From NCBI RefSeq assembly GCF_000178955.2, contig NC_016631.1:6076001-6140000 (forward strand): DNA of 64,000 bases. Direction: 5' to 3'. Shown here piece by piece: positions 1-12,286 of the stretch. Each line of letters opens with the position of its first letter. Positions within the stretch are counted from its first letter, which is position 1. Source of the stretch: Granulicella mallensis MP5ACTX8. GTDB lineage: Bacteria; Acidobacteriota; Terriglobia; Terriglobales; Acidobacteriaceae. Under the pieces are notes generated by a model. That model saw only the letters and a list, made by a program, of their open reading frames with translations. It ran no database searches and was not told where the DNA came from. A program made the translations under genes and the position numbers.

Positions 1-293
1 CCGCGTGGCACCTCGAGTATCGCGGCGGAGACGGCTGGCATCCCGTAGCCAATGCGAGCGGCTATCCAACGACCGTCGGCGAGTTCGTCGACGTGAAGTT
101 CGATCCCATCACCACGCGCTGCCTTCGCGCCGTGTTCGATGCCTCGGGCGACGGCCAGCAGTACGCCGCAGTCGCCGTCCAGGAGTGGGAGACACTCGGA
201 CCGAAGGTGGTTTCCCTCACCTCGCTGCCGAAACCTCCGTCCGCCAGCGACCCCAATTCGGGCTGTTCGGCAGCTCCAGCAACCCACCCATAA
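1..293 (+). CDS. C-terminal fragment of an extracellular protein with a discoidin-like (F5/8 type C) domain
   Basis: The reading frame is open from the window edge to the TAA at 291-293, so only about 97 C-terminal residues are visible. They read like the end of a discoidin-like carbohydrate-binding module: W-H-L-E-Y-R, W-H-P-V-A, then a T-T-R-C-L-R-A-V-F-D strand and a closing A-V-Q-E-W strand. The same layout occurs in the N-terminal module of the GH127 enzyme at 7092-9974 (its Y-R-I-L-Y-W, F-V-P-V-A and I-L-E-W-Q-V). The missing part is probably a secreted glycoside hydrolase, perhaps a second arabinosidase, but its catalytic domain lies outside the window. The codon at the left edge is incomplete. 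Confidence 0.6.
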   Translation, partial: AWHLEYRGGDGWHPVANASGYPTTVGEFVDVKFDPITTRCLRAVFDASGDGQQYAAVAVQEWETLGPKVVSLTSLPKPPSASDPNSGCSAAPATHP

Positions 294-302
294 GCTTTTT
301 GG

Positions 303-332
303 TTGACAACAATGGCCCAATCGCGCGATGTT
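303..332 (+). promoter_or_regulatory. Possible sigma70 promoter ahead of the permease/ara genes
   Basis: A perfect TTGACA at 303-308 is followed 18 bases later by a weak -10 match, GATGTT at 327-332. It lies just after the stop of the first gene and about 75 bases before the strong Shine-Dalgarno at 390-396. Only the -35 box is convincing. Confidence 0.25.
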
Positions 333-406
333 CTATGTACTCGAAATTGTATCCGTTAATTGCACGACTACCGAAACCACCGCTAACAGAAGGAGGAACC
401 TTGGAC

Positions 407-598
407 ATGAAACTCGCACACAGGCTCTTTCTTGGGGGCGCAGGCGCAATGAACACCACAACCCTCCTGCGCGCGAACGCGGAAACGTTTTCTTACGACG
501 CTTCCGCATCGTTTAGCCTCGTAGCGAACAGCACACTCACGCTTCGGCGGGTCCCTGGCATAGGGCCGCTCCCGGCATCTCTCACTCAGAAGGCATAA
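407..598 (+). CDS. Possible 63-residue small protein or leader upstream of the permease
   Basis: ATG at 407 follows a strong Shine-Dalgarno (AAGGAGGA at 390-397) at about 10 bases, and the frame runs to TAA at 596-598, five bases before the permease ATG. The product starts with a basic, signal-like stretch (MKLAHRLFLGGAGAM) and has a bland Ala/Ser/Thr-rich remainder. I do not recognise a family. The spacing would let it be translationally coupled to the permease. The unusually good ribosome binding site is the main argument for it being real. It could also be the remnant of a longer exported protein. Confidence 0.35.
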   Translation: MKLAHRLFLGGAGAMNTTTLLRANAETFSYDASASFSLVANSTLTLRRVPGIGPLPASLTQKA

Positions 599-602
599 GC
601 GC

Positions 603-2144
603 ATGCAGCAGATCGATACAGACTTGCAGCTCATTCATGACGGGGAGACCGGCGTATCCCCTACCGAGTTTCGCAAGGCGCTGGGTCTCTTCGACTCCGT
701 GATGATCGTTGCCGGCATCATGGTCGGCTCCGGCATCTTCATCGTCAGCGCGGAGATCTCCCGGCAGGTCGGCTCGGCCGGCTGGCTTCTCGTCGCCTGG
801 GTCATCACCGGCATCCTCACCGTCTTCGGCGCGCTCAGTTACGGAGAGCTCGCCGCGATGATGCCCACCGCCGGCGGCATGTATGTCTATCTTCGCGAGG
901 CCTTCTCGCCGCTGCTCGGCTTCCTCTATGGCTGGACGCTCCTGACCGTCATCCAGACCGGCTCTATCGCCGCCGTCGCCATCGCCTTCGCCCGCTTCAG
1001 CGGCGTGATGTTCCCCTCGATCAGCGAGACCCACTACTTCATCCCGCCCGTCCGCGTCCTTCCCGGCTATGCGTTCTCGCTCTCCTCCGCACAGGCGGTC
1101 GCACTCGCCGTCATCCTGCTCACCTGCTTCATCAACACGCGCGGCGTCACCTGGGGCAAGCTGGTCCAGAACATCTTCACCGTTGCAAAGCTCGCGGGCA
1201 TGGTCGTGCTCCTCGGCCTGGGCGCGTATGCCTTCGTGCGCAACCCGTCTGTCTTCCACCTGAACTTCGCCGACGCCTGGCATCCCAAGCACATCTCGCT
1301 CATCCACACGATCGACGCCACCACCGGCTTCGGTCTTCTCGTCGCGCTCTGCGTCTCACAGACCGGCTCACTCTTCTCCGCGGACTCCTGGCACGACATC
1401 ACGTTTGTCGCCGGTGAGGTCCGCAACCCCAAGCGCAATCTGCCGTTGGCGCTCGGCCTCGGCACCTCGATGGTGATCGCGCTCTACCTGCTCTGCAATC
1501 TTTGCTACCTCGCCGTGCTGCCCATCAGTGCCATCCAAACGGCCCCCGGCGATCGCGTTGCAACCCTGGTCGTCGATACCGTGCTGCCCGGCATCGGCAA
1601 GCTGGCTATGGGCTGCCTCATCATGGTCTCCACCTTCGGCACGGTGAACGCGCTCACCCTCGCGGGAGGGCGCGCCTGTTACGCGATGGCGCAGGATGGG
1701 CTCTTCTTCCGCCGCGCGGGCAAGCTCAATGAAGCCCGTGTCCCCGGCTGGGCACTCGCGATCCAATGTTTCTGGGCGCTGCTGCTGGTTCTTCCGCGCA
1801 CCTACGATGCCGCCACCCAGACCTACGGCAATCTCTACAGCAATCTTCTCGACTACGTGATCTCTGCCGCCCTCATCTTCTACATCCTCACGGTGATCGG
1901 CCTGTTTCGCCTTCGCTCCACGCGGCCCGATGCGCCCAGACCCTATCGTTGCTGGGGTTATCCCTGGCTGCCGGCGCTCTACATCACCGGCTCCTCCGTC
2001 GTCCTGGTCATACTCTTCATTTATCGGACATCGACTACCTGGCCCGGCCTGCTCATCGTCCTGAGCGGAGTTCCGGTGTATCTGTTCTTACGCAAAGGCA
2101 AATTGCAGGCAGACCTGGTGGCAGCCCAGAACACTTCTGGGTAA
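603..2144 (+). CDS. APC-superfamily amino acid permease
   Basis: A 513-residue integral membrane protein of the amino acid-polyamine-organocation superfamily, most like the LAT/SteT-type exchangers. The N-terminus shows the hallmark GIMVGSGIFIV helix-1 motif with its unwound G-S-G-I-F substrate site, followed by about 11 further hydrophobic segments (for example W-L-L-V-A-W-V-I-T-G-I and G-L-L-V-A-L-C-V-S). It starts five bases after the small upstream ORF and is followed 139 bases later by ribulokinase, so it probably belongs to the arabinose gene set. A sugar substrate would be atypical for APC. An amino acid such as hydroxyproline, released from arabinosylated plant protein, is a plausible inference but is not shown by the sequence. 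Confidence 0.88.
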   Translation: MQQIDTDLQLIHDGETGVSPTEFRKALGLFDSVMIVAGIMVGSGIFIVSAEISRQVGSAGWLLVAWVITGILTVFGALSYGELAAMMPTAGGMYVYLREAFSPLLGFLYGWTLLTVIQTGSIAAVAIAFARFSGVMFPSISETHYFIPPVRVLPGYAFSLSSAQAVALAVILLTCFINTRGVTWGKLVQNIFTVAKLAGMVVLLGLGAYAFVRNPSVFHLNFADAWHPKHISLIHTIDATTGFGLLVALCVSQTGSLFSADSWHDITFVAGEVRNPKRNLPLALGLGTSMVIALYLLCNLCYLAVLPISAIQTAPGDRVATLVVDTVLPGIGKLAMGCLIMVSTFGTVNALTLAGGRACYAMAQDGLFFRRAGKLNEARVPGWALAIQCFWALLLVLPRTYDAATQTYGNLYSNLLDYVISAALIFYILTVIGLFRLRSTRPDAPRPYRCWGYPWLPALYITGSSVVLVILFIYRTSTTWPGLLIVLSGVPVYLFLRKGKLQADLVAAQNTSG

Positions 2145-2186
2145 CGCTTCAAGCCACCCTCATACCCAAGCCCTAAGAAAACAAGG

Positions 2187-2197
2187 GAAACGCTTTC
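2187..2197 (+). promoter_or_regulatory. Possible LacI-type operator upstream of araB
   Basis: The 11-base near-palindrome GAAACGCTTTC (GAAA, central CGC, TTTC) lies in the 139-base gap before ribulokinase. Its form matches operators generally bound by LacI/GalR regulators. No regulator gene is adjacent, so the assignment is by form only. Confidence 0.3.
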
Positions 2198-2283
2198 TCA
2201 AAGTCGCGACTCTCGCGGAATACCACTCTCAACGAGCCCGCTGGCTCCCAAATGTTTGTTCTGAAGCAAAGGAAACCGGATTC

Positions 2284-3873
2284 ATGGCCATCGTCGCCGG
2301 AGTAGATTTTGGAACGCTCAGCGTGCGAGTCACCTTGCTCGACAGCGAGCGGGGACGGCTCGGAACATCCTCCGCAAACTACCCTCTGCATCGCCGCAGA
2401 GAAGATCCGGACTTCGCCACCCAGTCTCACCACGATCAGATGCAGGCCCTGGCCGCAGCCACACGACAGGTGCTGGCCGAAACGGGAGTCGCCGGCGCGA
2501 ACGTCGTGGGTCTGGCCCTCGACACGACCGGATCGAGCGTCATCCCCGTCGATGCCCAGCTCCAGCCGCTCGATGAGTACATGCTCTGGTGCGACCATCG
2601 CGCCCACAAGGAAGCCCAGCTCATCACCGAGATGGCGCACGCCCAGAACCTCGAAGCCATTGCATGGTGCGGCGGCGTCTACTCGTACGAGTGGGGCTTT
2701 GCCAAGCTGCTCTACTGGCTTCGCAACAATCCCGGCAAGCGCGCGTACTTCGCCACCGCCCTGGAGCACTGCGACATGGTCGCCGCCACGCTGATCGGCA
2801 TCACCGATCCGGCCGAGGTGCCGCGCAGCATCTGCGCCATGGGGCACAAGTGGATGTGGAATCCGCGCTGGGGTGGTCTGCCCTCGCAGGCATTCCTCTC
2901 CAGCCTCGATCCTCTCTTCGACGGCATTCGCGAAAAGCTTCAGGGCAAGTACGCAACGTCCGATGCCATCGCCGGCACGCTCAGCAAACACTGGGCCGAG
3001 CAGATGGGGCTTCGCGCCGGCATTCCTATTCCCGTCGGTGCCTTCGACGCGCACTGGGACGCGATCGGTGCCGGCTGCAAAGAAGGCGATGTCGTCAACG
3101 TCGTCGGCACGTCGACGTGCATCATCGCGATGGCCTCGCATACGAACCTGATTCCCGGCGTGTGCGGTGTGGTACCGGGCAGCGTGCATCCGGCCTTCAC
3201 GGGAATAGAAGCCGGTCTCTCTGCTACCGGGGACATCTTCGAAGCCATCGCGCGCCGCGCAGGCACCGATGTCCGCACGCTTTCGCAGGGCCTTGAAGAA
3301 TATGCCCCCGCGCAGACAGGGCTGCTGCGCCTGAGTTGGGATAACGGGGATCGCACCGTGCTGGTCAACTCGGAACTGGGTGGGATGACCCTCGGCTGGA
3401 ACCTGCTGCACTCGGCTCAGGACGAACTCTTCGCCGCCATCGAAGGCACCGCCTTCCACACGCGCATCATCCTCGAGCGTATGGCCGAGCACGGCGTTGC
3501 CGTCGAGCGCGTGATCAATGCGGGCGGCATTCCGCAGAACAACAGCGTCCTGAACCAGGTATATGCCAACGTGCTCGGCAAGCCTGTGCTGGTGCCGGAT
3601 GGAATCCCCACCAGCCTGGGCTCGGGAATCGTCGCCATGGTGGCATCGGGAATCTATCCGTCCATCGAGGCCGCGCAAGAAGCGTTATGCCTTCCCTTCA
3701 AAACCTACCGGCCGCAGCCCGAAGCCGTTGCGCGTTACGACGAACTCTTTACTCACTATCGCAATCTGTACTTCGCCTTCGGGGAAAAGAAAGCCACTCC
3801 CGCATCGTTCGGGGAGGTTCTTCCAACCCTTCGCAGGATCGCCACCGAGGCACGCACGTCCTCCGCCACCTAA
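2284..3873 (+). CDS. araB: L-ribulokinase
   Basis: A 529-residue FGGY-family kinase that phosphorylates L-ribulose with ATP to L-ribulose 5-phosphate, the second step of the isomerase route for L-arabinose. Visible are the N-terminal [10 protein letters not shown] phosphate-1 motif, the substrate-binding LWCDHRA stretch, the [11 protein letters not shown] region with the expected catalytic Asp, and V-G-T-S-T-C, which is typical of AraB rather than XylB. The C-terminal adenosine motif appears as NAGGIPQNN. An AAGGAAA Shine-Dalgarno precedes the ATG. L-arabinose isomerase follows 28 bases after the stop, indicating one operon. The usual third gene, araD (ribulose-phosphate 4-epimerase), is not in this window. 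Confidence 0.95.
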
Positions 3874-3901
3874 AACTTGTTCGATTGAAAGGAAGTTCAA
3901 G

Positions 3902-5353
3902 ATGAATCTGAAATCTCTCGAAGTCTGGTTCGTTACAGGAAGCCAGCATCTTTACGGAGCCGAAGCGCTCGCGAAGGTTGCGGAAAACTCGCAGAAGATC
4001 GCCGCTTCTCTCAATGCCGAAAGTGCCATCCCGGTCACCATCGTCTTCAAGCCGGTGATGACCACGAGCGACCAGATTCGCGAGCTCTGCCGAGAAGCCA
4101 ACAACGCCAAAAACTGCATCGGCCTCGTGCTCTGGATGCACACGTTCTCGCCGGCAAAGATGTGGATCGCCGGTCTCAAGTCGCTGGCCAAGCCGTTCCT
4201 GCATCTGCATACGCAGTTCAATCGCGAGCTTCCCTGGGCCTCCATCGACATGGACTTCATGAACCTGAACCAAGCCGCGCACGGCGACCGCGAGTTCGGC
4301 TTCATCACCGCCCGCCTGCGCCTGCCGCGCAAAGTCGTGGTCGGCTTCTGGCAGGACGCGGGTACCGTGTCGGAGATCGCCGCGTGGACCCGCGCCGCGG
4401 CAGGCTGGAACGAATCGCAGACCCTCAAGGTCGCACGCTTCGGCGACAACATGCGTGACGTCGCGGTCACCGACGGCAATAAGGTCTCCGCGGAGATGCA
4501 GCTCGGTTACAGCGTGAACGGGTATGGCGTCGGCGATCTCGTCGAGCGCATGAATCAGTTCAGCGACGCCGAGGTCGATAAGCTCGTCGCCGAATATCGC
4601 AAGGCCTACACCATCACCAAGGCCCACGACCGCCCCGCCTCCCTCCGCAACGCCGCGAAGATCGAGCTCGGCCTGCGGGCGTTCCTCGAAGAAGGCGGCT
4701 TCGGCGCCTTTACCGACACCTTCCAGGACCTCCACGGCATGGATCAGCTTCCCGGTATCGCAGCCCAGCGCCTTATGGCAGACGGCTATGGCTTTGCGGG
4801 TGAAGGCGACTGGAAGACAGCCGCCCTGGTACGCACGATGAAGGTGATGGCACTCGGCATGCAGGGAGGCACCTCCTTCATGGAGGACTACACCTACGAC
4901 TTCAGCGGAACGCCGAAGGTCCTCGGCTCGCACATGCTGGAGATCTGCCCCTCAATCGCTGCCGGCAAGCCGTCGCTCGAGGTCCATCCACTCGGCATCG
5001 GCGGCAAGGCCGATCCGGCACGTCTTGTCTTCACCGCACCCAGCGGGCCGGCCGTCGTAGCGACTCTCGTCGAGATGAGCGAAGGCTTCCGGTTAATCGT
5101 TAATGAGGTCGATGTCGTCCCACCAGAAGAGGAGTTGCCGAAGCTCCCTGTTGCACGCGCAGTATGGCTCCCGAAGCCAAGTCTCAAGGTAGCCGCCGCT
5201 GCCTGGATCTATGCTGGAGGGGCGCATCACACCGGCTTCAGCCAGGCGCTCACCACGGAGCACCTGGAAGACTTTGCGGAGATCGCCGGCATTGAGTTGA
5301 TCGTCATTGACGCGGATACGCGCCTGCGCGAACTGCGCCGGCAGCTTCGCTAA
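3902..5353 (+). CDS. araA: L-arabinose isomerase
   Basis: A 483-residue protein converting L-arabinose to L-ribulose in the cytoplasm. The start [19 protein letters not shown] is the classic AraA N-terminus. Conserved [25 protein letters not shown] and [12 protein letters not shown] stretches follow, and these carry the expected metal and active-site Glu/His residues. Length matches the family (about 500). The ATG at 3902 is preceded by GGAAG; the longer upstream reading frame is only the out-of-frame end of araB. The gap to araB is 28 bases and to the next gene 30 bases, so all three are probably co-transcribed. Confidence 0.96.
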
Positions 5354-5383
5354 CAGATATTCATAGAAGTTCAGGAGTTACAG

Positions 5384-6970
5384 ATGCAGTTGACTGGTGA
5401 GATGTTGATCGGCGCACGCGCCGTTCCCGGAATGGTAGGCAAGCTTCGTGCAATAAACCCCTCGACGGGTGCAGAGATGGAGCCCGCCTTCAGTGGCGGC
5501 TCCGTCAGCGACGTCGACGCAGCCTGCGCCCTGGCTGCCGCGGCCTTCAATACGTACCGGGCCACAAGCCTGGAGCAGCGCGCGCAGTTCCTGGAAGCCA
5601 TCGCACAAGGCATCGTCGATCTCGGCGATGTGCTCGTCGAGCGCGTGATGGCAGAGTCGGGTCTTCCGCGTCCTCGTGTCGAAGGAGAACGCGCCCGCAC
5701 CGCTGGGCAGCTTCGTCTCTTTGCCTCACTCGCGCGCGAAGGCCGCTTTCTGAGCGCGACTCTCGACACGCCTCTTCCCGAACGCAAGCCGCTTCCCCGC
5801 GCCGACCTGCGCGCCCAGAAGATTCCACTGGGCCCGGTCGCTGTCTTTGGTGCCAGCAACTTCCCGCTCGCCTTCTCGGTCGCCGGAGGAGATACGGCTT
5901 CCGCACTGGCCGCAGGTTGTCCCGTCGTCGCCAAGGCTCATCCTTCGCACCTTGGAACCTCCGAGCTGGTCGGTCGCGTCATTCAAAAGGCCGTTGCCGA
6001 CAGCGGACTTCCCGAAGGCGTCTTCTCTCTCCTCATTGACAGTGGCAACAACGAAGTAGGGACAGCTCTCGTTCAACATCCGGCGATCCAGGCTGTTGGC
6101 TTCACCGGCTCGCGGCGCGTCGGGCGTATTCTCGTCGCGCTTGGGGCAGGCCGCGAAGTCCCGATTCCCGTCTATGCGGAGATGAGCAGCATCAATCCGG
6201 TCTTTCTTCTGCCTGGCGCTCTCAAGCAGCGCGCGGAGGCCATCGCGCAGGGCTTCATCGACTCCCTCACGATGGGCACCGGTCAGTTCTGCACCAAGCC
6301 GGGTATCGTCATCGGCCTCGCGAGCCCGGACTTCGACCGCTTCCGCACTGCCGCGCAATCCGCCATCGAAGCCAAGGCCGCGACCACCATGCTCAACACG
6401 GGCATTCATCGTGCCTACTGTCACGGCACCGATGAGTGGTCGAAAGACAGCGGCCTCCAGGCCCTTTCCAGCGGCGCAGCGCCCGCGCCAGAGGCAACCG
6501 CGGGCCAGCCAAAGTTCTTCAGCACGAAGGCGAGCTACTTCCTTCAGTCTCCGCACCTTCTCGAAGAAGTCTTCGGGCCTGCGGGTCTGCTGATCGAATG
6601 CAGCAGCACGGATGAGTTGGTCGCCGTCGCCAACCATCTGAACGGGCAGCTCACGGCGACACTTCATCTCGAAGCAGCCGATACGGCTCTCGCACGGACA
6701 CTGGTGCCGATCCTCGAGCGCAAAGCCGGTCGCATTCTCGTCAACGGCTTCCCGACCGGAGTCGAGGTCAGTTATGCGATGGTGCATGGAGGACCTTCGC
6801 CCGCGACCTCCGACAGCCGCGTTACCTCGGTCGGTGCGATGGCGATCGAACGGTTCCTGCGTCCAGTCTGCTATCAGGACTTCCCGGCGTCCCTGCTGCC
6901 CGAGTCGCTTCAGGATGCCAATCCACTGCAGGTCTGGCGTCTTGTGGACGGAAAGCTACAGCAACCGTAA
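5384..6970 (+). CDS. Aldehyde dehydrogenase, 2-oxoglutarate semialdehyde (2,5-dioxovalerate) type
   Basis: A 528-residue NAD(P)+-dependent aldehyde dehydrogenase of the alpha-ketoglutaric-semialdehyde subgroup. Evidence is the GPVAVFGASNFPLAFS entrance, the NAD-site V-G-F-T-G-S, the general-base Glu in YAEMSSINPV and the catalytic Cys in GTGQFCTKPG. The reaction would be 2-oxoglutarate semialdehyde to 2-oxoglutarate, the last step of the oxidative pentose (Weimberg-like) route, of trans-4-hydroxyproline degradation and of glucarate degradation. It sits 30 bases downstream of araA. That is odd beside an isomerase/kinase route, because the two pathways do not share this step. Substrate is inferred from subfamily resemblance. 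Confidence 0.85.
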   Translation: MQLTGEMLIGARAVPGMVGKLRAINPSTGAEMEPAFSGGSVSDVDAACALAAAAFNTYRATSLEQRAQFLEAIAQGIVDLGDVLVERVMAESGLPRPRVEGERARTAGQLRLFASLAREGRFLSATLDTPLPERKPLPRADLRAQKIPLGPVAVFGASNFPLAFSVAGGDTASALAAGCPVVAKAHPSHLGTSELVGRVIQKAVADSGLPEGVFSLLIDSGNNEVGTALVQHPAIQAVGFTGSRRVGRILVALGAGREVPIPVYAEMSSINPVFLLPGALKQRAEAIAQGFIDSLTMGTGQFCTKPGIVIGLASPDFDRFRTAAQSAIEAKAATTMLNTGIHRAYCHGTDEWSKDSGLQALSSGAAPAPEATAGQPKFFSTKASYFLQSPHLLEEVFGPAGLLIECSSTDELVAVANHLNGQLTATLHLEAADTALARTLVPILERKAGRILVNGFPTGVEVSYAMVHGGPSPATSDSRVTSVGAMAIERFLRPVCYQDFPASLLPESLQDANPLQVWRLVDGKLQQP

Positions 6971-7018
6971 GGAAATCTGGACACTTTCAGTTCAGCCGAT
7001 GTAGGCTGTTCACAGTTT

Positions 7019-7052
7019 CGTATACGTTGTCGCATACAAAGAAAACGTATAC
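7019..7052 (+). promoter_or_regulatory. Operator-like cluster of CGTATAC motifs before the GH127 gene
   Basis: CGTATAC occurs at 7019-7025 and 7046-7052 with a GCATAC at 7032-7037 between them. Positions 7020-7037 form an 18-base inverted repeat with arms GTATACG and CGCATAC. GTATAC-rich DNA stands out in this GC-rich sequence. The same CGTATAC core appears at 38358-38364 upstream of xylB. This is consistent with a binding site for a sugar-responsive repressor; the regulator is unknown. Confidence 0.4.
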
Positions 7053-7091
7053 TCAAAACCCTGCGGCAGATTCGAAGGAGTACCTCTCAAT

Positions 7092-9974
7092 ATGTCTAGC
7101 AAACTCTCCAACAGCTTGATGAATCGCCCGACGGCCCAAGATGCCGTTGCCCTCCCCGAAACCGCAGGGTCCGACAGTCTTCTGAACAGACGAAACTTCC
7201 TCGCTGGCGTGGCAGGAACCGCACTGCTGACTGCGGTGCATCCATCTAAAGCCCTGGCGCAGGACAGCACCTCTCTCAATCTCGCAAAGGTCGCCACGCC
7301 TTCGAGCCTCTATATCTCCGGCGACACCAACCTCACCGCATTGAACGACGGCAACACCCCCGCCAATTCGCGCGATCAGGTTCATGGCTCCTACGGCAAC
7401 TGGCCCAAAACGGATACCCAATGGGTGCAGTACGACTGGAGCAAGCCGGTCACCACGAACAAGGTCGACGTTTACTGGTGGATGGATCGCGGCGGCGTAG
7501 GCGCACCGAAGTCCTACCGGATTCTCTACTGGAACGGAAGCGACTTCGTTCCGGTTGCAAACGCCCAGGGATTGGGAGTTGCCGCAGACACCTTCAACAC
7601 CACCACCTTCGATGAAGTAAAGACAGACAAGCTGCGTCTTGAGATCGCCTCGGACGGCACGCACTCCACCGGCATCCTCGAGTGGCAGGTGCTTAGTTCG
7701 GGTCCTGTTCCCGACTTTCCTCCGACCGTCAACGCCGGCATCGACCGGACGGTCGTACTCGGCGGAGAGACGTACCTCATGGGCAAAGCGGACTGGCTCA
7801 AGCCGGCGCGGGGCAACACGGCTCGCTGGACCAAGGAAGCCGGCCCCGGCCATGTGCTCTTCGCGGACGCTGCCGCGCCCAACACCAGCGCGGCCTTTTC
7901 CGCACCGGGCGACTACGTACTCAAGCTGACCGCCAACGGCAGCCAGGAGCAGGTCACTTCCACGCTCAAAGTACGCGCGGAGGTTGCCCCACCGAAGGAT
8001 CGGCTCGACGTCGTTTATACCAAGAAGTATGCGATCGATAGCCCGCTGTGGAATGCGCGTGCCAAGACACTGATCGTCAGCTGGATTCCCCATTGCATCG
8101 AGTACTGCGAGCGCACCGACCTCACGCAGGGACAAGGTGGCATCGACAACTTCATCGAAGCCGGCAAGGCTGTTCGCGGTGAACCGCACGCTCGTCATAA
8201 GGGCTACGTCTTCGCCAATGCGTGGGTCCACCAGACGGTGGAATCCATGTGCATCGCGCAGATGGTCGATCCGCAGGGAGATCCCGAGATCATTGCGGCC
8301 CAGGCCAAGATGAAGGAGACGTTGGAGCGCTGGATTCCCATCATCCTCGCCGCGCGCGAGCCCGACGGCTATCTGCAGACGGCTTACACGCTGGCGGACC
8401 GCAGCCACTGGCCGGAACGCTGGTCGCCCGCGCAACGCGGCAACCACGAGGGCTACGTCTCCGGTTACTTCATCGAATCCGCGATCAACCACTACACGCT
8501 GACCGATGGCCAGGATCTGCGCCTCTATGACGCTGCCAAGAAGCTCGCCGACTGCTGGGTGGCGAACCTCGGTCCCGGGAAGAAAGCGTGGTTCGACGGA
8601 CACCAGGAGATGGAGCAGGCACTCGTCCGCTTCGGGCGCTTCGTCAACGACATGGAAGGCAATGGACGCGGAGACTCGTACATCAAGCTCGCCAAGTTCC
8701 TTCTCGACTCCCGCCGCGGCGGTCAGGAGTACGACCAGAGCCATCTGCCTCCGGGCCAGCAGTACGAAGCCGTAGGCCACGCCGTGCGCGCGACCTACTT
8801 CTACTCCGGCATGGCCGACATCGCCGCGGAGACTGGCGACAAGGACTACCAGAGCGCGGTGATCTCACTCTGGGACAACATGGTCAACCGGAAGTACTAT
8901 CTGACCGGCGGCATCGGCAGCGGTGAAACCTCCGAAGGGTTTGGCCCGAACTATTCGCTTCGCAATGAGGCCTACTGCGAATCCTGCTCCAGTTGTGGGC
9001 TCATCTTCTTCCAGTACAAGCTCAACCTCGCCTATCACGACGCCCGCTTTGCCGACCTCTACGAGCAGACGATGTACAACGCTCTGCTGGGCGGCGTGGA
9101 TCTGGCGGGCAAGAACTTTGCCTACACCAACCCGCTCACCAATACGCTGCGTACCCCCTGGCACGTCTGCCCGTGCTGTGTCGGCAACATTCCCCGCACG
9201 CTGCTCATGATGCCGACGTGGAGCTACGTGAAGGGCAACAAGGGACTCTACGTCAACATGTTCGTCGGCAGCCGCATCCACGTCGGCAAGGTAGCGGGCA
9301 CGAACGTGGAGATGGTGCAGAAGACCAACTATCCCTGGAGCGGCAAGGTAAGCATCACGGTCAATCCAGAAGAAGCCAGGACCTTCTCGGTGTACGTGCG
9401 CATTCCTGACCGCAACACCAGCGAACTGTACACAGAGACGCCGGTGGTCAGCGGGATGAAGAGCTTTGCCGTCAACGGTCACGAGGTAAAGCCTCGTATC
9501 GAGAAGGGCTATGCCGTCGTCACGCGCGAGTGGAAGACCGGCGACCGCATCGATCTGGAGCTGCCGATGGAACCGCAGCGCGTCAAAGCAGACAGCCGCA
9601 TCAAGGCCGACGTCGATCTGGTCGCGCTGAAGTACGGCCCACTCGTCTACAACGTGGAGACTGCGGACCAGCACAATCTCGAACAGGCATTGAGCGATGC
9701 TCCGCTCAAGATGGAGTGGCGGCCCGACCTGCTTGGCGGTGTGATGGCGATGAGCGGCAAGTGGCAGGACGGCACGCCCATGCTGGCCGTTCCAAACTAT
9801 GCGCGCATGAATCGCGTCGAAGTCCCCAGGGAGCAGACTGCAGGAGATCCCTCCGTCAACTACGCACCGGGTTCAACGACGAATGCTGGGGCCAATCCCG
9901 CAGCCGCTGCGAATCAGCGCCGTATTCGCATGAGGACGGTTCAATCCAAGGTCTGGATGAAGAACCAGGTCTAG
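7092..9974 (+). CDS. Tat-exported GH127 beta-L-arabinofuranosidase with discoidin-like and Ig-like modules
   Basis: A 960-residue secreted enzyme. A twin-arginine signal is present (N-R-R-N-F-L at residues 32-37, hydrophobic stretch, then A-L-A-Q). Next comes a discoidin-like module (about 55-205: W-V-Q-Y-D-W, V-D-V-Y-W-W, I-L-E-W-Q-V), an Ig/PKD-like module (about 210-300), and a GH127 (former DUF1680) catalytic domain. The metal/thiolate centre of GH127 is intact. C-E-S-C supplies Glu630 and Cys632, and H-V-C-P-C-C supplies Cys695 and Cys696; by alignment to HypBA1, Cys695 would be the nucleophile and Glu615 the acid/base. HypBA1 removes beta-L-arabinofuranose from hydroxyproline-linked arabino-oligosaccharides. 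A GAAGGAG Shine-Dalgarno precedes the ATG. The 121-base gap from the dehydrogenase carries operator-like repeats, so it may have its own promoter. Confidence 0.93.
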   Translation: MSSKLSNSLMNRPTAQDAVALPETAGSDSLLNRRNFLAGVAGTALLTAVHPSKALAQDSTSLNLAKVATPSSLYISGDTNLTALNDGNTPANSRDQVHGSYGNWPKTDTQWVQYDWSKPVTTNKVDVYWWMDRGGVGAPKSYRILYWNGSDFVPVANAQGLGVAADTFNTTTFDEVKTDKLRLEIASDGTHSTGILEWQVLSSGPVPDFPPTVNAGIDRTVVLGGETYLMGKADWLKPARGNTARWTKEAGPGHVLFADAAAPNTSAAFSAPGDYVLKLTANGSQEQVTSTLKVRAEVAPPKDRLDVVYTKKYAIDSPLWNARAKTLIVSWIPHCIEYCERTDLTQGQGGIDNFIEAGKAVRGEPHARHKGYVFANAWVHQTVESMCIAQMVDPQGDPEIIAAQAKMKETLERWIPIILAAREPDGYLQTAYTLADRSHWPERWSPAQRGNHEGYVSGYFIESAINHYTLTDGQDLRLYDAAKKLADCWVANLGPGKKAWFDGHQEMEQALVRFGRFVNDMEGNGRGDSYIKLAKFLLDSRRGGQEYDQSHLPPGQQYEAVGHAVRATYFYSGMADIAAETGDKDYQSAVISLWDNMVNRKYYLTGGIGSGETSEGFGPNYSLRNEAYCESCSSCGLIFFQYKLNLAYHDARFADLYEQTMYNALLGGVDLAGKNFAYTNPLTNTLRTPWHVCPCCVGNIPRTLLMMPTWSYVKGNKGLYVNMFVGSRIHVGKVAGTNVEMVQKTNYPWSGKVSITVNPEEARTFSVYVRIPDRNTSELYTETPVVSGMKSFAVNGHEVKPRIEKGYAVVTREWKTGDRIDLELPMEPQRVKADSRIKADVDLVALKYGPLVYNVETADQHNLEQALSDAPLKMEWRPDLLGGVMAMSGKWQDGTPMLAVPNYARMNRVEVPREQTAGDPSVNYAPGSTTNAGANPAAAANQRRIRMRTVQSKVWMKNQV

Positions 9975-9981
9975 CGATGCC

Positions 9982-11196
9982 CTACCAGGCAGCCTGCAGG
10001 GTCTCTACGCCTCGCACCGTGCTTAGATGTAGCCAGCGAAGATCGTCGAGATTGGTCAGTCGCATATCGGGGATGCGGCGAAACAAAGTGCGGAGCGCAA
10101 TTTCAAGCTCTGCCGTAGCGAGCATGGCTCCGATGCAGTAATGGGCGCCTGCCCCGAAGGCAAGGTTTCGTGAGCCTGGGTCGGATCGGGTGATGACTAG
10201 ACGGTCGGGGTCGATGAACCGTTGCGGATCGCGGTTGACGGCTCCCAGGCAGATGACGATCGTCTCTCCTTCGGAGAAGGAGATGCCTTCGAACTCCATG
10301 TCTTCCAGGGCATGACGACTGGTGATCTGCAAAGAGGTCTCATACCGGAGGCATTCGTTAATGCACGGTGGGATCAGTGAATGATTCTGCCGGACGAGTT
10401 CAAGCTGGTCCGGGTTGCGATAGAGGCTGATCAGAATGTTTGCGACCATGTTGATGGTCGTCTCGTGTCCTGCGACGAAGGTGATAAAGATGCTCGCAAC
10501 AATCTCTTCATCCGTCAGACGCTGGCCGTTCTCCTCTGCAGTGAGCAGCGTCGAGATAAGATCGTCGCCAGGCGACTGACGAAGCTTGCGCAACTTCCTG
10601 GTGAAGAACTCGTCTAGGCTTTTCGTGGCTGCATTGGCAGCTTCGATCTGGTCCATGCTTATCTCTGCGATATCGAGGACGCGGAGAAATGGCCGAACCA
10701 TGGCAGCTCCTTCCGTGAGCAGAAAGAGTGTCTCCTCTTCGTCCAGCCCCAGAAGGATGCAGATGGCAGTAATAGGCAGGGGATAGGCGAAGTGTTTGAC
10801 TAGATCGACTGAACCTTTGTCGATGAAACTATCGACGAGATGCTCCGTAGTAGCTTGCAGATTACTTCTGAATTCGGCGATCCGTTCCGCATTGAAGGTT
10901 TTCATGAGGAGGCCCTTCATATACGTATGCTCCGGTGGGTTCAACATCAGGACGGAGCGATGCACGGTCTGAAAGGCAGCATCCTTCGTGCGTTCTTCAC
11001 CGTGACGCATGTGAACATACGCAAGATATTCTTTACCCCACCGTTTATCTCTTAAGAGCATCTCTGTGGTCGCGTAAGATCCTGTTGCCCAGATGCCGGG
11101 CATGAGAGGAACGAATGCACCTTCTTTACGAAGCCGTTCATAGACCGGGTAGGGATCTGCATAGAACGAGGGACTGGAGAAATCTGCCATCTTCAT
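9982..11196 (-). CDS. Cytochrome P450 monooxygenase
   Basis: A 404-residue soluble bacterial P450. The heme-binding loop F-G-A-G-A-H-Y-C-I-G places the axial thiolate at Cys354. The I-helix oxygen-activation motif reads AGHETT, and the K-helix ExxR reads E-C-L-R in NECLRYETSLQ. No membrane anchor is visible. An AGAGGAA Shine-Dalgarno lies seven bases before the ATG. It begins 46 bases after the KASIII-like gene on the same strand, so the two probably form an operon and may act on one product. No ferredoxin or ferredoxin reductase gene is nearby. It is convergent with the GH127 gene, only seven bases apart. Substrate is unknown; carotenoid or polyketide oxidation is only contextual inference. 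Confidence 0.93.
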   Translation of the reverse strand: MKMADFSSPSFYADPYPVYERLRKEGAFVPLMPGIWATGSYATTEMLLRDKRWGKEYLAYVHMRHGEERTKDAAFQTVHRSVLMLNPPEHTYMKGLLMKTFNAERIAEFRSNLQATTEHLVDSFIDKGSVDLVKHFAYPLPITAICILLGLDEEETLFLLTEGAAMVRPFLRVLDIAEISMDQIEAANAATKSLDEFFTRKLRKLRQSPGDDLISTLLTAEENGQRLTDEEIVASIFITFVAGHETTINMVANILISLYRNPDQLELVRQNHSLIPPCINECLRYETSLQITSRHALEDMEFEGISFSEGETIVICLGAVNRDPQRFIDPDRLVITRSDPGSRNLAFGAGAHYCIGAMLATAELEIALRTLFRRIPDMRLTNLDDLRWLHLSTVRGVETLQAAW

Positions 11197-11242
11197 GCTG
11201 TGTTCCTCTTGTGAAAGCTACGTTCGCAACAATAGGAGAGCG

Positions 11243-12286
11243 TCAGAACTGAAATGAAAACGAGGCGAAGGACATACCAGCGCTTCCTACCCATCCGGCA
11301 AGCGTCTCGCCCCTCTGAATCGTTCCCTCTTCTTGCGCCATGGCGATTGCCGCAGGGACAGAGGCTGAGACAAGATTTCCGTAATCGGGATAGATGAACC
11401 TGATCTTGTCCTCCACGCCGACCGCGGCCCCCATATCCATCCACAACCGCTTGGATGCAGCGTGCGGAAAGATCTCCTTGATCTCGTCATGAGGGATGGA
11501 GAGGCGCGTGAAGATTTCTATGCCATGTTCCTTTCCAAGACGGAACATATCGTTACCGAAAGCTGTGAACTGGTTGGGACCGTTGCGTCCGAGGCGTGGT
11601 TGTGGCTGGCAATACCGGTCGAAACCCTCCAGAGGCACGGAGCAGAGATCGCTGAGATCGGCCTGGCTACTGAAGTGGAACTCCCATGGCCTCGAGTCGT
11701 CGCGAACCAGAAAAGTTGCGGAGGCTGCCTCTCCTACTGTGTATGCAGGAAAGTTCCATTCGACCTCATCGACGTTGTCGAGGTGGAAACACCCTGGATT
11801 AACGCGGCCTCCGGGATGCATACTGAATTCGCAGTTGACGATCAGAGCATTTTTATACAGACCAGTGCCGAACATGCTGTAGGCCACAAAGATGGCTCGC
11901 ACCCAGCTCATGCAGGCATCAACAATGTCGAAGCAATGGGCCTGCGGCATACCAAAAGCAGCGCCTACCATGTAGGCCATTGCGGGTTCGAGGAAGCCGC
12001 GATCGACGCCGGTGTAGATGATGAGATCGACATCCGATCTTCTGACCCCTGCCTGATCGAGCGCCCCAGAGATGGCTTGTTGTAGAAGATCGAACGGCTT
12101 TTCGCCGTCCCCTAACCAATGTCTTTTATTCGAGCCCGAATAGATCAGGTAGTACCCTATGCGTTTGAGGGCATCGCGCAGTTGCTCACTGGTCAGATCG
12201 ACGCTTTGTTCCGTCACCATGGCTTTGATTCTGCGGTTGTCTATTACCTGTGACGGCATGACCGCCTTGACTCCTGCAATTCTCAT
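11243..12286 (-). CDS. 3-oxoacyl-ACP synthase III (KASIII/FabH)-like enzyme
   Basis: A 347-residue thiolase-fold condensing enzyme or acyltransferase. The catalytic triad is complete: Cys125 in DIVDACMSW, His275 in IFPHAASK and Asn304 in YGNLVSAS. The His-Asn spacing (29) is close to that of FabH. The active-site motif D-A-C-M-S-W and the long first third (R-H-W-L-G-D-G) differ from housekeeping FabH. It therefore more likely belongs to the specialised FabH-like group that starts or transfers acyl chains in secondary metabolism (inference). GAGGAG precedes the ATG. The P450 gene follows in the same operon. A palindrome with TATCGAC/GTCGATA arms lies in its upstream region. Confidence 0.88.
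   Translation of the reverse strand: MRIAGVKAVMPSQVIDNRRIKAMVTEQSVDLTSEQLRDALKRIGYYLIYSGSNKRHWLGDGEKPFDLLQQAISGALDQAGVRRSDVDLIIYTGVDRGFLEPAMAYMVGAAFGMPQAHCFDIVDACMSWVRAIFVAYSMFGTGLYKNALIVNCEFSMHPGGRVNPGCFHLDNVDEVEWNFPAYTVGEAASATFLVRDDSRPWEFHFSSQADLSDLCSVPLEGFDRYCQPQPRLGRNGPNQFTAFGNDMFRLGKEHGIEIFTRLSIPHDEIKEIFPHAASKRLWMDMGAAVGVEDKIRFIYPDYGNLVSASVPAAIAMAQEEGTIQRGETLAGWVGSAGMSFASFSFQF

Follow-up and report, generated by a model that had tools for sequence, protein, structure and literature searches.

Glycosidase and hydroxyproline-catabolism genes at one locus of Granulicella mallensis, probably serving the use of plant glycoproteins

Bacterial operons for the degradation of trans-4-hydroxyproline encode 4HypE, c4Hyp oxidase, Pyr4H2C deaminase and 2-oxoglutarate-semialdehyde dehydrogenase. 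As set out in the consulted parts of one source (PMC4113996), they have the proline racemase, DAAO, DHDPS and ALDH superfamilies in common with a locus of the acidobacterium Granulicella mallensis MP5ACTX8 that is described here, and the Streptomyces regulator HypR (PMC6608401) is of the same GntR type as the regulator of the G. mallensis operon. Part of this locus lies in the window that was analysed, a stretch of 64 kb (bases 6076001-6140000 of the single 6,237,577-bp contig), and the remainder extends to the left of it. Unlike the known trans-4-hydroxyproline operons, the last gene of the pathway and the permease stand 22-27 kb from the epimerase in G. mallensis, behind glycosidases and with araB and araA between them. 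The release of hydroxyproline-linked arabinose is known from HypBA1, HypBA2 and HypAA of Bifidobacterium longum and from XCV2724, XCV2728 and XCV2729 of Xanthomonas, which employ glycoside hydrolase families 127 and 43 (GH127 and GH43), both also present in G. mallensis, and in Xanthomonas a disrupted prolyl oligopeptidase gene adjoins HypAA, in parallel to an S9 peptidase of G. mallensis (excerpts of PMC6085000 and PMC8106489). In those excerpts both clusters end at arabinose with no hydroxyproline catabolism described, unlike G. mallensis. GH127 was also proposed for extensin arabinose in a Latescibacteria reconstruction (PMC4454575), the consulted sections of which, unlike the G. mallensis genome, hold no description of a hydroxyproline catabolic operon.

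A survey of the Acidobacteriota, in the part of it consulted, found hydroxyproline degradation enriched in SPL genomes, SPL being read as soil-preferring lineage (PMC11778308). That survey counts the pathway; GH127 and words beginning with "arabino" are absent from its text, and it has no such joint locus. No description of a bacterial locus joining the deglycosylation of hydroxyproline-rich glycoproteins to hydroxyproline catabolism was found in the sampled portion of the open-access literature, and the novelty is the combination. The locus as a whole probably serves the use of hydroxyproline-rich plant glycoproteins. In plant litter, these glycoproteins are a store of both carbon and nitrogen.

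Genes of the neighbourhood were called with a simple open reading frame (ORF) picker, and names without Pfam, NCBIfam or locus-protein tblastn backing were assigned by eye. Five intact ORFs on the + strand, separated by gaps of 139, 28, 30 and 121 bases, encode in order a permease, AraB, AraA, an aldehyde dehydrogenase and a GH127 glycosidase, so that the compact five-gene locus drawn in an earlier note on this DNA is real. The permease (603..2144, 513 aa) belongs to the APC family (AA_permease_2, 176.8 bits), and the neighbours of its relatives suggest that it imports hydroxyproline. The L-ribulokinase gene araB (2284..3873, 529 aa) reached 551.5 bits with an NCBIfam model whose cut-off is 428, and 351.8 bits with a second ribulokinase model, under its cut-off of 583. 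The L-arabinose isomerase gene araA (3902..5353, 483 aa; NCBIfam 802.5 bits, cut-off 622) has a longest possible ORF beginning at 3563, upstream of the called start. The putative 2-oxoglutarate-semialdehyde dehydrogenase (5384..6970, 528 aa; Aldedh, 160.0 bits) is followed by the GH127 enzyme (7092..9974, 960 aa), which has a twin-arginine motif and an N-terminal F5/8-type domain. The start of the locus at 294 was also placed correctly: bases 1-293 belong to a GH43 gene, likewise on the + strand but not named in that note, which has a C-terminal F5/8-type domain. Its 3' end lies at 3..293, and the complete gene is G000:C1:6074641-6076293 (G000 being the MP5ACTX8 genome).

The genes for the earlier steps of hydroxyproline degradation were found in the same genome, as the earlier note had proposed to check, with epimerase, D-hydroxyproline dehydrogenase and deaminase in one operon to the left of the window (6052343-6057762). 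A profile built from the hydroxyproline epimerases of four relatives gave a single match, at 6053220-6054158; from there the permease is 22 kb to the right and the window dehydrogenase 27 kb. The operon holds a GntR/FCD regulator, the epimerase, a DAO-family protein, a small 2Fe-2S (Fer2_4) ORF, a pyridine-nucleotide-disulphide oxidoreductase and a DHDPS-family protein; its DAO-type dehydrogenase adjoins the DHDPS-type deaminase, and the Fer2_4 ORF is the gamma subunit of a three-subunit dehydrogenase. The best model for the epimerase was 4-hydroxyproline epimerase NF052296 (414 bits, just under the curated cut-off of 450), as compared with 216 bits for proline racemase, 176 bits for trans-3-hydroxyproline dehydratase and 334 bits for PF05544, and both catalytic cysteines, C91 and C241, are retained. 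No aldehyde dehydrogenase gene was among the ORFs picked in this operon. The interval between operon and window encodes two CarboxypepD_reg/outer-membrane-barrel proteins, a GH27, two DUF5695 proteins and the GH43, while to the left of the operon are genes for an M1 peptidase, an SBF transporter with a low-molecular-weight phosphatase-family gene, an S9/DPP4 peptidase, two DUF885 proteins, a GH31 and a protein of 782 aa. DUF885 proteins are peptidase-like.

The dehydrogenase and the permease very probably belong to hydroxyproline catabolism. For the dehydrogenase, the label of 2-oxoglutarate-semialdehyde type given in the earlier note is compatible with the family models and favoured by the gene context, but the models themselves leave the substrate unassigned and the label unproven, the best NCBIfam score being 107.7 bits against a cut-off of 770. 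The genome has no second dehydrogenase of its subfamily, three other matches being 26-28% identical. In a genus set of 28 genomes, G. mallensis MP5ACTX8 included, 20 loci of this subfamily were recovered at E 1e-47 or better, fragments G006:C85 and G018:C166 excluded, and 12 of them lie within a hydroxyproline operon or close to one (G000, G003, G019, G026, G012, G014, G017, G006, G009, G004, G021 and G018), which answers the question of synteny in related acidobacteria in favour of the link. In G018 the epimerase adjoining the dehydrogenase is partial and has a stop, a full epimerase being on another contig, and G003 adds little since it is a near-copy of the G. mallensis locus. The most telling of the genus loci is that of G019, where one stretch holds, in order, the genes from epimerase to deaminase, GH27, DUF5695, GH43, GH127b, permease and dehydrogenase.

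Elsewhere the subfamily keeps other company, and this bears on the idea that the window dehydrogenase serves a Weimberg-type oxidative breakdown of pentoses or sugar acids, unrelated to hydroxyproline. Three of the 20 loci are of pentonate type: the homologues in G023 and G011 (51-53% identical) stand with an ILVD_EDD dehydratase and a FAA_hydrolase-family protein, the G023 partners being named by eye, and that in G008 (48%) with the latter protein only. Four more (G005 twice, G024 and G002) have different neighbours, and that of G013 is a fragment. Among five plasmid neighbourhoods of relatives, two from Azospirillum (62-63%) have sugar-acid genes, which encode a lactonase and a DHDPS-family protein and are accompanied by sugar ABC transporters, and three are mixed. 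Against such a role, AraA and AraB belong to the non-oxidative route, and the pentonate dehydratase that the earlier note named as a possible companion was not found in G. mallensis at E 1e-60 with the ILVD_EDD enzyme of G011 as the query, in a genome-wide search that did not extend to dehydratases of other types or to the FAA_hydrolase-family protein; the same search matched eight of the 28 genomes, five of which also have an epimerase match. In a tree of 24 rows (nine unlabelled, midpoint root only), the dehydrogenases of the window, G003, G019 and the operon of G026 form one clade (support 100/99), all four lying within 28 kb of an epimerase and the G026 copy inside the operon itself, whereas the pentonate-type enzymes group with G024 in a separate clade (99/100); the remaining operon-borne ones fall into two further clades. 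On the dehydratase search and the tree, the Weimberg role was set aside, and it is hardly credible. As a side observation, the window clade falls together with plasmid proteins of proteobacteria (58-63% identical in the rows used) and not with most homologues of the genus (about 50%), a pattern that looks as it would after horizontal replacement.

The link between permease and hydroxyproline, asserted earlier from the window only, was also seen in the neighbours of its relatives across the Acidobacteriota. Within the genus, relatives of at least 77% identity occur in 10 of the 28 genomes, all of which have an epimerase match (a fragment in G016), as compared with 14 of 28 genomes overall (with G016 again counted for a fragment only); the hypergeometric p for this co-occurrence is 8e-5, without correction for relatedness. 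In seven of the ten, permease and epimerase match (a remnant in G014) share a contig and are at most 25 kb apart, and the other three are G006 and G016, where contigs are short, and G026, where the permease is on a different contig; the copies of G006 and G026 contain a stop. In a scan of named genomes, the flanks of the best 80 of 92 permease loci were compared with 24 locus proteins. At 74% identity or more, a hydroxyproline-operon gene was in the examined flank at 11 of 23 loci and any locus gene at 20 of 23; at 56-67% identity the counts were 11 and 20 of 38 loci, and five of these 20 count solely through a proline-racemase-superfamily protein about 30% identical to the epimerase and possibly of other activity; at 36% identity or less, both were 0 of 19. 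The difference between 22/61 (at least 56% identity) and 0/19 has a Fisher's p of 8e-4, and with flanks of at least 20 kb it is 12/26 vs 0/11 (p = 0.005). At L175 and L186 the permease stands directly behind the hydroxyproline genes. The roughly 30% identical superfamily protein adjoins permease relatives of about 60% identity at L172, L176, L181, L189 and L190, where it perhaps has a different hydroxyproline or proline activity.

A further tie among these genes is an operator-like motif. The sequence TGTATCCAAAATAGT was found, within two mismatches, before the epimerase in G. mallensis and 11 other genomes of the genus, the epimerase being a remnant in G014 and G016. With at most one mismatch, the whole G. 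mallensis genome has three sites, all at the locus, at 6053174 (epimerase) and at 6061831 and 6066479 (outer-membrane proteins, GH27); four further sites have two mismatches, one of them before the GH31 gene at 6032805, and the reversed motif, taken as a control, has three sites with up to two mismatches. A variant, TGTATACAATAAMGTAT, precedes GH43 in five of the six genomes examined (G000, G012, G019, L143 and L144, absent in G004). A matrix built from ten epimerase-promoter sites scored 18.1 at 6061828, 17.1 at 6066476 and 14.8 at 6074613, values reached by 0, 1 and 3 out of 20 shuffled sequences of about 120 kb. Because three shuffles reach 14.8, the score by itself does not make the GH43 site (6074613) significant, and at this promoter the best scores of G012 and G019 are no higher than 5.4 and 8.5; the case for the site would rest on recurrence in five of six related promoters, part of which relatedness may explain. 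Two of the three GTATAC hexamers in the window precede GH127, as palindromes in its promoter region (7020..7052), and could be an operator. One GntR protein may bind all of these sites.

The GH127 enzyme has a Pfam catalytic domain (213.7 bits) together with the middle and C-terminal GH127 domains, and a twin-arginine motif near its start (R33-R34). The complete Cys/Glu centre reported in the earlier note was verified in an alignment with the HypBA1 structures, in which the Zn/Cys centre residues E615, E630, C632, C693, C695 and C696 are kept. Of the residues of this centre in HypBA1, Cys417 and Glu322 are named in the literature consulted. A search of the genus and of a family sample (28 and 150 genomes) placed the GH127 clade in 12 genomes, in five of which it is 2-31 kb from the epimerase (G000, G003, G004, G026 and G128). 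In G020, a genome that is 59% complete, it adjoins other genes of locus type and no epimerase, and in G006 it is on small fragments. In the family sample an epimerase was present in four of the seven genomes with this GH127, vs 48 of 150 overall.

A number of observations weigh against a role in glycoprotein use, and the first three of them also favour a different account, in which a sugar locus for plant arabinan or pectin (rhamnogalacturonan II, RG-II) adjoins an unrelated hydroxyproline operon by chance. HypBA1, which the earlier note cited as a characterised GH127, is not the closest solved enzyme: the window enzyme is nearer PDB 6ex6 (330 bits), an aceric acid hydrolase, and 4qjy (295) than HypBA1 (184), which leaves HypBA1 orthology unsupported, and its best NCBIfam model is also aceric acid hydrolase (263 bits, far under the cut-off of 950). 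The GH127 clade stands without any further locus gene in the examined flank in five of the 12 genomes (G042, G057, G115, G127 and G144; the G057 contig ends within the gene), and in two of the four family genomes that also have an epimerase, G127 and G144, the two genes are more than 0.5 Mb apart (0.66 and 0.55 Mb). Both araB and araA were seen at the locus only in two G. mallensis genomes (MP5ACTX8 and X5P3). Three of the 23 close permease relatives and 18 of the 38 more distant ones had no locus gene in the examined flank, which spanned at least 20 kb for six of these. The motif was not found within two mismatches at the operons of G017 and G024 or the intact operon of G014, and the window itself has no core site within three mismatches. 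The nearest plasmid relatives of the dehydrogenase are proteobacterial, with identities of up to 64%, and an annotated proline-racemase-type gene was absent from all five neighbourhoods inspected, out of 40 records listed, in a gene table that is incomplete. Neither hydroxyproline nor L-arabinose is listed as used in the consulted part of the physiology of G. mallensis (PMC3910553).

The account by chance is nevertheless unlikely, as glycosidase and peptidase genes are again mixed with hydroxyproline genes in G004, G012, G019, G021 and G026 and, outside the genus, in G128 and Terriglobus albidus L150, G009 having glycosidases without peptidases in the examined stretch, and the operator-like motif ties the epimerase to the GH27/outer-membrane genes and, as a variant, to GH43. 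That the source of the hydroxyproline is collagen of animals or a free pool in the soil, with sugar genes kept for another purpose, is most unlikely: a catabolic operon is by itself silent on its source of hydroxyproline, but genes of GH127 type, GH43, GH27 and DUF5695 recur with this one, and collagen is not known to carry arabinose. A variant that leaves glycoprotein use intact is that the target is arabinogalactan-protein, in which hydroxyproline bears type II arabinogalactan, and not extensin, the candidate named in the earlier note. Unlike the Bifidobacterium cluster, G. mallensis has no GH121 (HypBA2 relative) over the cut-off, an absence that speaks for this variant and also counts against the broader glycoprotein reading, and its GH127 is nearer another solved member of the family; the four hits of the GH121 model below the cut-off, which were rejected as a partner, are three stretches in the locus GH43 and GH127 genes and one short stretch near a second araBA. 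GH27 and GH43 enzymes are also active on arabinogalactan side chains. Against the variant, no endo-galactanase or glucuronidase family was present among the 18 locus proteins scanned to the left of the window, the remaining genome not having been searched for one, and the variant is plausible, if somewhat the less probable choice.

The arabinose genes look like a local addition to the locus of hydroxyproline and glycosidase genes, because araA and araB are found at it in few genomes. In two Granulicella metagenome-assembled genomes (L143 and L145) araA without araB is beside the permease, GH127 adjoins araA both there and in X5P3, and at L164 and L171 a permease of 62-63% identity has an araB homologue about 6 kb away, in flanks without araA. 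None of the ORFs between 603 and 9974 is araD, which leaves the araB-araA-araD trio incomplete there; a second araA, at 3.59 Mb, is accompanied by araB, an Aldolase_II (araD-like) gene and a LacI-family regulator. The earlier proposal that the locus imports both products of glycoprotein breakdown stands in part: an amino acid permease was recognised, but an arabinose importer was not recognised at the locus, which is a further point against the reading.

In the scheme that we infer, with substrates, export, control and physiology deduced from the gene families, linkage and shared motif read in the sequence, the window genes would be the right-hand end of a locus of about 34 kb, perhaps 57 kb. 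Exported GH127, GH43, GH27 and DUF5695 proteins would strip the sugars from the glycoprotein, and exported peptidases (S9/DPP4-like, M1 and DUF885) would cleave its backbone. The trans-4-hydroxy-L-proline taken up by the APC permease would be converted by the epimerase, the three-subunit D-hydroxyproline dehydrogenase and the DHDPS-type deaminase, encoded about 19 to 28 kb to the left, to 2-oxoglutarate semialdehyde, which the window dehydrogenase would oxidise to 2-oxoglutarate. The freed L-arabinose may become xylulose 5-phosphate by way of AraA, AraB and the AraD that is encoded beside the second araBA (3.59 Mb), and the GntR/FCD regulator beside the epimerase probably governs the whole set. 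It is an even question whether Acidobacteria have here a dedicated, jointly regulated locus by which the glycan, the peptide backbone and the hydroxyproline of these glycoproteins pass from wall polymer to central metabolism, with the DUF5695 and 782-aa proteins as new hydrolases of hydroxyproline glycosides or of their neighbours. The locus would offer a concrete source of hydroxyproline and a testable gene set behind the enrichment of the pathway in soil Acidobacteriota, it names a candidate hydroxyproline permease, and it draws attention to two uncharacterised protein families.

The 782-aa protein is encoded on the minus strand at G000:C1:6028574-6030922, has a twin-arginine-like start and no Pfam or NCBIfam match, and recurs at the hydroxyproline loci of G006, G012, G016, G019 and G128. 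The two DUF5695 genes are adjacent (G000:C1:6068547-6074561), and the first recurs near the permease at many acidobacterial loci. Structure prediction was too poor for a fold assignment of either family, with a mean predicted local distance difference test (pLDDT) of 45.6 for the 782-aa protein, predicted from three sequences, and 42.9 for DUF5695, predicted from five. Between the peptidase genes and the operon, at G000:C1:6042416-6044476, are arsenic-resistance-like genes for an SBF transporter and a phosphatase-family protein, both from Pfam, and for an ArsR-like regulator named by eye. On the minus strand at 9982-12286 of the window, adjoining the end of GH127, are genes for a cytochrome P450 and a ketoacyl-synthase-III-like protein.

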